Shown here piece by piece: positions 41,090-45,237 of a stretch of DNA of 64,000 bases (the first letter of the stretch is position 1; every line of letters starts with the position of its first letter). Where the stretch lies: assembly GCA_947166345.1 (NCBI GenBank), contig CAMVDU010000006.1, forward strand, positions 1 to 64,000, given 5' to 3'. The notes under the pieces were generated by a model. It made no database searches and was not told the origin of the DNA. It saw only the letters and a list, made by a program, of their open reading frames with translations. Origin of the DNA: an uncultured Prevotellaceae bacterium. GTDB taxonomy: Bacteria > Bacteroidota > Bacteroidia > Bacteroidales > Bacteroidaceae. The translations under genes were made by a program, and so were the position numbers.

Positions 41090-41884
41090 TTAATGTTTGA
41101 TCTCGATGTCGCGTTTCACGTTATTCCTGATCTTTGCCAGATAGCGTTTCATACCCTCGGCATCTTTCTGGTCGATAATCTCAAGCAGTTCCTTCAGTTC
41201 CGTACGGATCTGAGCCACTTGATCGTGGGTATATGGGTTGAAAAGTATTTCCTGCAACAGGTAGTCATCCTCGTTAAGAACGCCCTTGGCTATACGCATG
41301 TGGCGTTTGAAGGTAGTGCCTGGCGCATCTTGATGCTTCATCACAGCAGCAAAGACGAAAGTGCTGACGAAGGGGATAGACAGCGAATAGGCCACCGTCT
41401 TGTCATGCTCTTCAAACGAATATTCATAGATATTCAGGCCTAGGCGCTGATAAAGGTCCTTGAAAAAGATGCGCCCCATGTAGTCGCCCTCGCTGATGAT
41501 AATAGCGTTCTCCTCGGAAAGCTGTTGCAGGTTGGCAAAGGTAGGACCAAACATCGGGTGAGTTGACACATAGCGCATACCCGTCTGCTCATAGAAGTCC
41601 TTCAGGTCAGTCTTCACGCTGGCTATATCGCTGATGATGCACTCCTTGGGTAGGAAAGGAATCACCTCTTTGAACACGGGAATGGTGTATTTCAACGTCA
41701 CGGCATTAATCAACAGCTCAGGCTCAAATGCCTTGATTTCCTCATAAGTAGTGAACCGTTGACAGTTATAGGTAAAGCGCATGCGCTTAGGGTCTTTTTC
41801 GAAGACTGCCACCTCATGGTCAAAACTCAGCAGGTCGATGAAGAAACTACCCATCTTACCTGCTCCCATTACTAATATCTTCAT
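41090..41884 (-). CDS. tyrA: Prephenate dehydrogenase
   Basis: MKILVMGAGKMGSFFIDLLSFDHEVAVFEKDPKR...; STHPMFGPTFAN. Confidence 0.88.
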   Translation of the reverse strand: MKILVMGAGKMGSFFIDLLSFDHEVAVFEKDPKRMRFTYNCQRFTTYEEIKAFEPELLINAVTLKYTIPVFKEVIPFLPKECIISDIASVKTDLKDFYEQTGMRYVSTHPMFGPTFANLQQLSEENAIIISEGDYMGRIFFKDLYQRLGLNIYEYSFEEHDKTVAYSLSIPFVSTFVFAAVMKHQDAPGTTFKRHMRIAKGVLNEDDYLLQEILFNPYTHDQVAQIRTELKELLEIIDQKDAEGMKRYLAKIRNNVKRDIEIKH

Positions 41885-41938
41885 GCTATTTGCTATAGGC
41901 AATTGGCTAAAAGCTAAACGCTAATAGCCAAAAGCCAT

Positions 41939-43003
41939 TTATTTGTTAATAATTTCCATCTGTTGACGCACACTCTCCTCGTGGATACCTTCGAAGACCT
42001 TAGCCACGAACTCGGCTCCCATACCCAGGAGTGAGCCTTGGGCACCACGCTTCGACAGGATCTCGTTATAACGTGAGGTTTGCAGCACGGTCATATTATG
42101 ATCCTTTTTGTACATACCGATTTCACGACACACACGCATGCGCTTGGCCAGGATATCCATAATCTGGTTGTCCAACTCGTCAATCTGCTTACGTAGCTGA
42201 ACAATGCCCTCTGTAGTGGTATGCTCATCACGAATCACCAGCAACGACAGGATATAGTCAAGCACGTCGGGTGTTACCTGTTGGGAGGCATCACTCCACG
42301 CTTTGTCAGGATCGCAATGGCTCTCCACAATCAGACCATCGAAGCCAAGGTCCATCGCCTGCTGACACAACGGAGCGATAAGCTCACGCCGGCCACCGAT
42401 ATGACTGGGGTCACTAATAATTGGAAGTTCCGGTATGCGACGATGTAACTCTATGGGTATCTGCCACATAGGCATATTTCGATAAATCTTTTTCTCATAC
42501 GATGAGAATCCACGATGGATGGCTCCCAAACGTTTCACGCCGGCCTGGTTGATACGTTCCAAAGCACCAATCCACAGCTCGAGATCGGGGTTCACGGGAT
42601 TCTTTACAAATACGGGAACATCGACACCTTTCAGAGAGTCGGCCAATGCCTGCATGGCAAAGGGGTTGGCCGAGGTACGGGCACCAATCCACAGGATGTC
42701 GATGCCATATTTCAATGCCAGCTCCACATGTTCGGGTGTAGCCACCTCGGTAGCCACGAGCATCTTTGTTTCTTCCTTTACCTGTTTCAGCCATTGCAGG
42801 GCAGGTTCACCATGCCCCTCGAAACCTCCCGGCTTGGTACGAGGCTTCCACACGCCTGCACGAAAGTTGTGGCAGCCTTTCATGGCAAGTTGCTTGGCTG
42901 TTGTCATCACTTGTTCCTCAGTCTCGGCAGAGCAAGGGCCTGCAATCACGAAGGGACGTTCGTTGTCACTTGGCAAATTCAATGGTGCTAATTCTAATTC
43001 CAT
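41939..43003 (-). CDS. Bifunctional DAHP synthase / chorismate mutase
   Basis: FVIAGPCSAETEEQVMTTAKQLAMKGCHNFRAGVWKPRTKPGGFEG...; C-terminal CM domain (IDELDNQIMDILAKRMRVCREIG). Confidence 0.93.
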   Translation of the reverse strand: MELELAPLNLPSDNERPFVIAGPCSAETEEQVMTTAKQLAMKGCHNFRAGVWKPRTKPGGFEGHGEPALQWLKQVKEETKMLVATEVATPEHVELALKYGIDILWIGARTSANPFAMQALADSLKGVDVPVFVKNPVNPDLELWIGALERINQAGVKRLGAIHRGFSSYEKKIYRNMPMWQIPIELHRRIPELPIISDPSHIGGRRELIAPLCQQAMDLGFDGLIVESHCDPDKAWSDASQQVTPDVLDYILSLLVIRDEHTTTEGIVQLRKQIDELDNQIMDILAKRMRVCREIGMYKKDHNMTVLQTSRYNEILSKRGAQGSLLGMGAEFVAKVFEGIHEESVRQQMEIINK

Positions 43004-43018
43004 AGGTATATTTACGTT

Positions 43019-44197
43019 TTACTTGTTTACGATTTCTTTGATGCGCTCCAGAGCGACTTGTATCTTTTCCTCTTTGGCACAAAGCGAGATACGGATATAG
43101 CGTTCACCGTTCGAGCCGAAGATGAAGCCTGGGGTGATGAAAACACGGGCCTCATGCAGAACACGCTCCGTGAGATCTTCTACGTTCTGAATACTCTCGG
43201 GAATCTTGCCCCAGAGGAACATGCCCACCTGATTCTTGTCGTAGGTACATCCAAGCACATCCATGATCTTCTCGGCCCACTGGCGGCGACGGGCATAGGT
43301 TTCGATATTGTATTCGAGATGCCAGGCCTCGTCGTTCTTATAGGCTTCGGCAGCAGCCAGCTGGATGCCACGGAAAATGCCACTCTCTATGTTCGACTGT
43401 ACCTTCAATATCCACTGGATGAACTGCGCATTAGAGGCACAAAGACCCACGCGCCAGCCAGGCATGTTGTGACTCTTCGACATAGAGTTGAACTCTATGC
43501 AACAGTCCTTGGCGCCAGGAACCTGCAGGATACTGAGATGTTCCTCGCTCAGAATGAAGCTGTAGGGATTGTCATTCACCACAACGATGTCGTAATCTTT
43601 AGCGAACTTCACCAAGCGCTCATAGGTCTCCTTGCTGGCACGACCCCCTGTGGGCATATTGGGATAGTTGGTCCACATCAGCTTCACCTTGCTCAAGTCC
43701 ATCTTCTCCAACTGATCAAAATCGGGCTGCCAGCCATTGTCTTCGCGCAGGTCATAGTTCACGATCTTAGCACCCAGAATCTTGCTCAGCGACGTATAGG
43801 TGGGATAGCCAGGATTAGGCACCAGCACCTCATCGCCAGGATTCACGAAGGCAAGCGTTACGTGTAGGATGCCTTCCTTCGAACCAATCAGAGGTAATAC
43901 TTCCGTCTTAGCATCAAGGTCCACGTTATACCAGCGCTTGTAGAAGCCACTCATGGCCTCTCTCAGCTCAGGTGTTCCCTGTGTGGGCTGATAGCCGTGG
44001 GCGTTGGGTTGCTGGGCAACCTCACAAAGCTTATCGATGGTCTGCTTTGACGGGGGCATATCGGGACTGCCAATGGCCAAGGAGATAATGTCCTTACCCT
44101 CAGCATTCATCTGTGCCACCTCTTTCAGCTTACGGCTGAAGTAGTACTCCTGTACCAAACTTAATCTATCTGCTGGCTGTATCATAATAATTATCAA
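43019..44197 (-). CDS. PLP-dependent aminotransferase (aromatic operon)
   Basis: SLAIGSPDMPPSKQTIDKLCEVA..., NYPNMPTGG, FNSMSKSHNMPGWRVG. Confidence 0.92.
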   Translation of the reverse strand: MIIIMIQPADRLSLVQEYYFSRKLKEVAQMNAEGKDIISLAIGSPDMPPSKQTIDKLCEVAQQPNAHGYQPTQGTPELREAMSGFYKRWYNVDLDAKTEVLPLIGSKEGILHVTLAFVNPGDEVLVPNPGYPTYTSLSKILGAKIVNYDLREDNGWQPDFDQLEKMDLSKVKLMWTNYPNMPTGGRASKETYERLVKFAKDYDIVVVNDNPYSFILSEEHLSILQVPGAKDCCIEFNSMSKSHNMPGWRVGLCASNAQFIQWILKVQSNIESGIFRGIQLAAAEAYKNDEAWHLEYNIETYARRRQWAEKIMDVLGCTYDKNQVGMFLWGKIPESIQNVEDLTERVLHEARVFITPGFIFGSNGERYIRISLCAKEEKIQVALERIKEIVNK

Positions 44198-45024
44198 TTG
44201 GATTTATACTCTCCTAAAATTTTCAGGTCGCGTGTCAACGGGATGATGGCATCCACCGCCTGACGATAACGTGTCAAGTCACTATAGGTCACATCAACAT
44301 AGAACAGGTACTCCCACTCCCTACCGATGATGGGCAACGACTGAATCTTCGTCAGGTTAATCTTGTAGAACGACAAGATGGCGAGGATGGCCGACAGCGA
44401 TCCCTCTTCGTGAGGCAGGGCAAAGACAATGCTCGACTTGTTGGTATCGACCAGCGGACGCAACATGTCTGCCTTCTGTGGAGCCGAGCACACCAAAAAG
44501 CGGGTGAAGTTGTGCTTATTATCCTCAATACCGTCCTCCAGCACCTTCAGTCCATAGAGTCTGGCAGCCTCAGCATGACAGATGGCCGCCCATCCCTTGT
44601 GCTGCCCTTCGGCAATCATCTTAGCCGAGCCTGCAGTATCGTCACCTTCAACGATGCGCAGGTTGGGATGGTGCTCCAAATAGTGGCGTGTCTGCATCAG
44701 GGCCACAGGATGCGAGTGTACCTCGGTAATGGTATCCCAGTCATCATCGGGCAGACAGCAGATACAATGAGTGATGTGCAGTTTATGCTCGCCCACAACG
44801 GTTGTACCGCTATCACGCAGCAGCTCATAGTTGTGTAGCAACGAGCCTGCAATGGTATTCTCGATGGCGGCCATAGCCACCACAGTTGGGTCTTTGCGGA
44901 TGCTGTCATAAACCTGCTCGAAGGTCTGGCAACAAATCAACTGCAGTTGTTCACCCTTGAAGTACTGATGGGCTGCGATGTCGTGGAAAGACCCTATTTC
45001 TCCTTGTATTGCTATTCTCTTCAT
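44194..45024 (-). CDS. pheA: Prephenate dehydratase
   Basis: MKRIAIQGEIGSFHDIAAHQYF..., ACT domain; ATGA overlap with the downstream aminotransferase. Confidence 0.93.
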   Translation of the reverse strand: MKRIAIQGEIGSFHDIAAHQYFKGEQLQLICCQTFEQVYDSIRKDPTVVAMAAIENTIAGSLLHNYELLRDSGTTVVGEHKLHITHCICCLPDDDWDTITEVHSHPVALMQTRHYLEHHPNLRIVEGDDTAGSAKMIAEGQHKGWAAICHAEAARLYGLKVLEDGIEDNKHNFTRFLVCSAPQKADMLRPLVDTNKSSIVFALPHEEGSLSAILAILSFYKINLTKIQSLPIIGREWEYLFYVDVTYSDLTRYRQAVDAIIPLTRDLKILGEYKSN

Positions 45025-45056
45025 ATCTCAATTATTCACTTATCATTTAATAAGAA

Positions 45057-45147
45057 GCCCCACTTTCACTCTTCGTGAAGCGGGGCCTTATTTCAATTCT
45101 CAATTTTCCATTAACAATTATCTATTACATACGACTACCCGCTTCAC
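45057..45147 (-). promoter_or_regulatory. Transcription attenuator (antiterminator/terminator) of the pheA operon
   Basis: Minus strand: segment 1 GTGAAGCGGG (45147-45138), segment 2 GCCCCGCTTCAC (45086-45075), segment 3 GTGAAAGTGGGGC (45069-45057). 1:2 perfect over 10 bp, 2:3 pairs 12 bp with one bulge, then TTCTTATT. Confidence 0.82.
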
Positions 45148-45199
45148 AATGGCTTGTAAAGTAATAATAATAGTAATAGTATGCATTGAATTTCGACAT
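45125..45199 (-). CDS. Attenuator leader peptide MSKFNAYYYYYYYFTSHCEAGSRM (24 aa)
   Basis: ATG TCG AAA TTC AAT GCA TAC TAT TAC TAT TAT TAT TAC TTT ACA AGC CAT TGT GAA GCG GGT AGT CGT ATG TAA, between a TAATTTTG promoter box and the attenuator. Confidence 0.82.
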   Translation of the reverse strand: MSKFNAYYYYYYYFTSHCEAGSRM

Positions 45200-45229
45200 A
45201 AAATCTTACGATTTATTATTATTCGGGTG

Positions 45230-45237
45230 CAAAATTA
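45230..45237 (-). promoter_or_regulatory. -7 box TAATTTTG of the pheA operon
   Basis: Minus strand TTATAATTTTGCACCC, 30 nt before the leader ATG. Confidence 0.6.

Follow-up and report, generated by a model that had tools for sequence, protein, structure and literature searches.

The stretch of DNA analyzed here (64,000 nucleotides from a Prevotella-like bacterium, hereafter the window) carries, upstream of pheA, a short open reading frame with a run of tyrosine codons, and the question is whether this frame takes part in the control of the genes behind it. Amino-acid regulation is poorly known in Bacteroidales, a dominant order of gut and rumen. We conclude that the region is very probably a ribosome-mediated transcription attenuator, which would make the operon respond to how far tRNA-Tyr and, less so, tRNA-Phe are charged.

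The operon lies on the minus strand. Its first structural gene, pheA (44194-45024), encodes prephenate dehydratase (PF00800, 4.6e-53) and is followed by a class I/II aminotransferase gene overlapping the end of pheA (43019-44197; PF00155, 2.7e-59), by a gene for a DAHP synthase fused to a type II chorismate mutase (41939-43003; PF00793 and PF01817) and by tyrA, encoding prephenate dehydrogenase (41090-41902; PF02153, 2e-10). The pheA-aminotransferase-DAHPS/CM-tyrA operon proposed in the preliminary description was thus confirmed for all four genes, and their predicted products are enzymes for phenylalanine and tyrosine synthesis. The aminotransferase encoded between pheA and DAHPS/CM is probably an aromatic aminotransferase. 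The models nearest to this protein were those of LL-diaminopimelate aminotransferase, with scores under their cut-offs. The gene upstream of the leader encodes a TPR protein.

Reading the minus strand from 45500 to 44900, we found first a promoter of the Bacteroidetes type, then a leader ORF of 24 codons, and behind it an antiterminator segment, a terminator hairpin and, last, pheA. The promoter, recognized in the sequence, consists of TTTG (45261-45258), a 20-nt spacer and TAATTTTG (45237-45230). The predicted leader ORF (45125-45199), supported by the conservation of its Tyr/Phe run as well as by the sequence, encodes MSKFNAYYYYYYYFTSHCEAGSRM and a stop codon, with seven Tyr and one Phe within eight codons: the Tyr run (TAC TAT TAC TAT TAT TAT TAC) covers 45181-45161 and the Phe codon (TTT) 45160-45158. 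Segment 2, GTGAAGCGGG (45138-45147), the 5' strand of the antiterminator, lies within the end of this ORF and is defined by its pairing with segment 3 and by conservation. Folds and triple covariation indicate that segment 3, GGCCCCGCTTCAC (45075-45087), is common to the antiterminator (2:3) and the terminator (3:4), and the energy and covariation of the hairpin point to segment 4, GTGAAAGTGGGGCT (45056-45069), as the 3' strand of the terminator; this arm includes GTGAAAGTGGGGC at 45069-45057. The U-rich tail TTCTTATT (45049-45056) comes next in the sequence, and the ATG of pheA is at 45024. All these parts were located where they had first been placed, except that the perfect complement of segment 2, CCCGCTTCAC, occupies 45084-45075, two bases having been added to it when it was drawn from 45086.

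The fold of the window leader (-54.6 kcal/mol, z = -6.4) was not equaled by any of 200 dinucleotide shuffles. The folds of its sub-regions had z values from -4.5 to -6.8, with -6.4 for the terminator region and -4.5 for the antiterminator region, and none of 300 shuffles gave a segment 2:segment 3 duplex as good as the real one (-23.9 kcal/mol). The terminator hairpin (-21.3 kcal/mol) and its U-rich tail form a predicted intrinsic terminator; the T-tract is short and interrupted, the stem has a bulge, and a simple consensus terminator scanner run on the window listed no minus-strand terminator there. When the 450-nt upstream region was shuffled 5000 times, eight Tyr/Phe in nine codons never appeared, the maximum being six.

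To see how far these features extend, we gathered relatives of pheA from named genomes, 301 genomes of the family, 40 chosen upstream stretches and 119 genomes of the order, and scored as a leader any short ATG ORF with, in the later cut, at least six Tyr/Phe in nine codons. A leader ORF with a Tyr/Phe run was present at 167 of the 179 pheA loci, taken from Prevotella-like species, other Bacteroidaceae genera and other Bacteroidales families, vs. 8 of 1790 dinucleotide shuffles and 3 of 179 antisense stretches; many of the 179 loci are closely related, which makes the effective number smaller, but they still span many genera and about two dozen families. Typical leaders are MSKLNAYFYGYYFYFASNCEAGSRK in Prevotella-like genomes, MKALYNTYFFFFYYFYFSNKVKREFVCIR in a sister genus and MNIFGFAYYFFFYFYFTK in a different family. 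The promoter accompanies the leader: a TAnnTTTG box stood no more than 110 nt ahead of the start codon of the leader at 150 of the 167 loci (9% of shuffles), at a median distance of 27 nt (quartiles 26-28), and was joined by a TTTG 17-21 nt farther upstream at 109 of the 167 (0.5% of shuffles).

Twelve loci lack a leader. In at least five of these, pheA follows another open frame at a distance of 5-27 nt and so would probably not be the leading gene. Of the others, one is truncated by the end of its contig and some have a different upstream region. In some Prevotella-like genomes (L019, L021, L025, L029, and L094), a leaderless pheA comes 5-24 nt after another frame, and it looks as if pheA had been transferred to another operon; the MAG RUI320 has both kinds of copy, one with the leader (L010) and one without (L019).

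Tyr/Phe-run ORFs were also seen upstream of pheA outside Bacteroidales (L197, L191, L190, L185, L186, and others), with MKFNNAYFYGYYFYFTSKSRD and MKLFNTYYFGYFYYFSKSRG as examples from families beyond the order, at the level of the leader ORF only. As far as sequences can tell, the device is found throughout the order Bacteroidales, and many class-level loci outside the order have a Tyr/Phe leader ORF.

The composition of the runs bears on what would be sensed. The commonest run among the 167 leaders has five Tyr and three Phe (68 loci), all-Phe runs lie at one extreme, and the window, with seven to one, lies at the other: its share of Tyr exceeds that of every other leader, and no other has as many as seven Tyr, the run of its nearest relatives being YFYFYYYF. 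The sensing of Tyr (and Phe) put forward for this locus is supported in that Tyr/Phe runs are conserved, but they are normally mixed, and the seven-Tyr leader is a local state. The order-wide device is a predicted sensor of both Phe and Tyr, and at the loci we compared only this species has a nearly pure Tyr run. We know of no characterized ribosomal attenuator with tyrosine specificity, and a literature search for attenuators with tyrosine-codon leaders found none. The chances seem to us about even that we are dealing with a class-wide, uncatalogued family of dual Phe/Tyr attenuators whose amino-acid specificity shifts with substitutions in the leader run, and which has turned here into an almost purely tyrosine-sensing ribosomal attenuator. 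All-Phe, mixed, and nearly all-Tyr leaders would form a natural series of sensors for studying how codon composition sets specificity.

The runs could act through the peptide rather than through the codons: a nascent chain such as FYGYYFYF might arrest the ribosome from within the exit tunnel, maybe with a free amino acid or some other ligand as the signal, and the RNA switch would be unchanged. A fixed residue order is indeed frequent (YFYGYYFYF), and the run ends in FYF in 134 of the 167 leaders. However, Tyr and Phe replace each other in the run, the Gly may be missing, runs of Phe only and of almost only Tyr occur, and the residues of the run are the end products of the operon, as stalling on codons predicts. 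We consider arrest by the nascent peptide very unlikely.

Stalling on codons would act through the RNA, whose pairings were conserved together with the leader. Under the criterion of our search, a hairpin with a U-rich tail and an alternative partner for its 5' arm were recovered at 166 of the 167 leader loci, segment 2 being located by its best complementarity to the 5' arm of the hairpin (segment 3) and the shuffled controls being treated in the same way. The 2:3 duplex averaged -19.0 kcal/mol over these 166 loci vs. -9.4 in shuffled stretches; at 148 loci, at most 3 of 300 shuffles matched the real duplex, and at seven (L103, L106, L107, L121, L164, L177, and L179) it was no better than 5% of shuffles.

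In distant Bacteroidales, the cores of segments 2, 3, and 4 were altered together, as in GACCGGGA/TCCCGGTC/GACCGGGA, TTTCGGGATT/AATCCCGAAA/TTTCGGGATT and GCCCGGGAC/GTCCCGGG/CCCGGGAC. Read across segments 2-3-4, core position 5 was GCG, AUA, CGC or UAU, and core position 6 AUA, GCG, UAU or CGC. When variant segments 3 were matched against upstream stretches drawn from 27 other loci, their own stretch took first place in 8 of the 20 cases and fell within the best quarter for most variant loci, with some exceptions. Among 25 aligned Bacteroidaceae leaders, none of 500 shuffles attained the covariation score of either 2:3 or 3:4, and five pairs of the 3:4 terminator helix had both sides changed among relatives; shifting the partner by one column lowered the pairing from 87% to at most 53% for 2:3 and from 98% to at most 59% for 3:4. 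The proposed comparison of regions upstream of pheA orthologues was thus strongly positive both for conserved Tyr/Phe runs (167/179) and for compensatory changes (0/500 shuffles), and the mutually exclusive antiterminator and terminator of the preliminary description are supported by the shuffles of 2:3 and 3:4 and by the triple covariation.

The same data bear on whether the peptide itself could be the conserved object. The leader ORF might encode a functional microprotein, for instance a membrane-associated one, with the hairpin as a mere terminator of the upstream TPR gene; its position and composition are kept across an order, and the run is hydrophobic. Yet Tyr and Phe exchange without restriction within the run, 37 leaders terminate directly after it, and a promoter separates the leader from the TPR gene. 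Moreover, the residues behind the run are read in differing frames while the nucleotides do not change: segment 2 is translated as C-E-A-G in Prevotella-like genomes, other genera read it as V-K-R-E or A-E-R-D, and in some clades it falls past the stop codon. This constancy of segment 2 across reading frames, together with its covariation with segments 3 and 4, which neither a protein nor a plain terminator would need, indicates that RNA pairing is conserved and not the peptide. For these two reasons, we dropped the microprotein reading, which we regard as highly improbable.

Similarly improbable is that the leader governs Rho-dependent termination or the translation of pheA instead of an intrinsic terminator. 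The weak U-tract of the window would favor this, but the hairpins of relatives often have a long U-tract (e.g., TTTTTTTT), as expected of an intrinsic terminator, the 5' arm of the hairpin precedes pheA by a median of 55 nt, and the start of pheA was not sequestered in the folds examined.

Transcription attenuation by a translating ribosome also agrees with the geometry of the leaders. We read ribosome coverage from the distances at 166 loci and the footprint sizes of the E. coli ribosome, which serve as a yardstick for the leader segments that a ribosome covers. Segment 2 starts a median 8 nt past the last Tyr/Phe codon (7 nt in the window). It spans the stop codon in the 37 early-stop leaders (from about -2 to about +9 nt relative to the end of that codon) and lies about -26 to -11 nt from the stop codon in the 129 late-stop leaders. 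With the E. coli footprint, a ribosome stalled in the run is predicted to leave most of segment 2 exposed, and a ribosome at the stop codon to hide all or about half of it. A ribosome at the stop codon would thus mask segment 2 in both types of leaders, which would follow the same logic.

The mechanism would then operate as follows. Transcription would start just past TAATTTTG, and a ribosome would trail the RNA polymerase over the leader ORF. A shortage of charged tRNA-Tyr or tRNA-Phe would make the ribosome stall within the run and leave segment 2, GTGAAGCGGG, unoccupied; segment 2 could then pair with CCCGCTTCAC of segment 3, the 3:4 terminator would not form and the operon would be transcribed. 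With both tRNAs charged, the ribosome would reach the stop codon and sit on segment 2, 3:4 would form and transcription would end near 45050. We infer this termination, like the start site, the ribosome positions and the direction of the response to the amino acids, from the arrangement of the leader; a shortage of Phe or Tyr, and only that, should switch the operon on.

The pairing of segment 2 with its complement, numbered 1:2 when it was first described, is supported and corresponds to our 2:3, whereas support for a protector added upstream of it is mixed. The predicted MFE fold of the window leader includes such a putative segment 1, CTTTACAA (45154-45161, minus strand), where the run's final bases are paired with TTGTGAAG, on the 5' side of segment 2. 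Shuffling synonymous codons throughout the run gave no significant folding signal (median z 0.03 across loci, +1.3 in the window), nor did shuffling confined to the four codons at its end (mean rank 0.476, standard error 0.023). The last three codons of the run are biased, with TAC at 98% and TTT at 93-94%, and the synonymous bias is mostly weaker earlier in the run. Across genera, the run-end codons TAC TTT TAC TTT are nearly fixed (the corresponding span in the window being 45169-45158). The bias could be due to pairing with segment 2 or to pausing.

An amino-acid sensor of the T-box or metabolite riboswitch type, with an incidental ORF, is hardly conceivable: amino-acid genes are among the T-box targets in Firmicutes, but none of the Rfam 15 models matched the leader at gathering score, the sub-threshold matches up to E = 10 were to unrelated families, and T-boxes, riboswitches and other Rfam families were rejected. 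The Bacteroid-trp RNA (RF01692) appears in Table 1 of PMC2864571 as a predicted cis-regulatory RNA of Bacteroidetes. It resembles the pheA leader in this respect, and its name points to trp genes, but it belongs to a different family: its covariance model had no match in the window or in the whole genome, and we rejected this identity for the leader.

Other amino-acid genes of the same genome were inspected for leaders. The trpB gene (L210:267; contig C35 of genome G000), which precedes trpE, has about 120 nt upstream the ORF MMMISNYWWWRNSRF with three Trp codons (L210:96-143), followed by a strong GAGGGGCC..GGGCCTC hairpin with a T-rich tail and preceded by TAATTTTG. This region, which Bacteroid-trp (RF01692) does not match, is likely a second leader-peptide attenuator, judging by its motifs. 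For his, hisG is preceded by hisB and there was no convincing His run in the stretch inspected, on the downstream side of contig C17; ilvD lies close behind another gene, and thrA stands where its contig ends and showed no Thr/Ile run in the stretch seen.

The pheA leader had been thought possibly undescribed. It belongs to no Rfam family and is a candidate for a new one, but the Bacteroid-trp RNA (PMC2864571) and an element of Flavobacterium (PMC9723704) precede it. The latter study presents strong clues that amino-acid operons of F. psychrophilum are preceded by leader-peptide attenuators and describes at pheA a structured 5' element that has no Rfam hit and is conserved in further Flavobacteriaceae genera (PMC9723704). 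That element likewise lies upstream of pheA in the same phylum, and, compared by description, it is probably the present one; its conservation is reported in Flavobacteriaceae, whereas we found Tyr/Phe leaders in other families of the class too. In B. thetaiotaomicron, some sORFs resemble leader peptides, pheA being unnamed in the part of that work dealing with them (PMC7366714). Attenuation in Bacteroidetes is thus already partly described, and the pheA device, outside Rfam, is predicted to work as the classical leader-peptide attenuators do. Vitreschak et al., in FEMS in 2004, reportedly predicted some attenuators in Bacteroidetes/Chlorobi.

The leader, the terminator, the exclusive 2:3 pairing and the placement of the stop codon were all found, so that the locus has the sequence-level features of classical attenuators, and an order-wide attenuator with three-way covariation would provide a directly testable model of Phe/Tyr sensing. 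Classical attenuation is that of trp, his and phe, and E. coli pheA and pheST are controlled by leader-peptide attenuators. The Bacteroidales device shares with these two a leader ORF rich in codons for the end product and mutually exclusive antiterminator and terminator, and with the E. coli pheA leader a downstream prephenate dehydratase gene. It differs from both in its RNA sequence and its Bacteroidetes promoter, and its operon, unlike that of E. coli, also includes an aminotransferase, DAHPS-chorismate mutase and tyrA. Finally, the E. coli leaders use Phe codons only, whereas the Bacteroidales leaders mix Phe and Tyr, and that of the window is nearly all Tyr.
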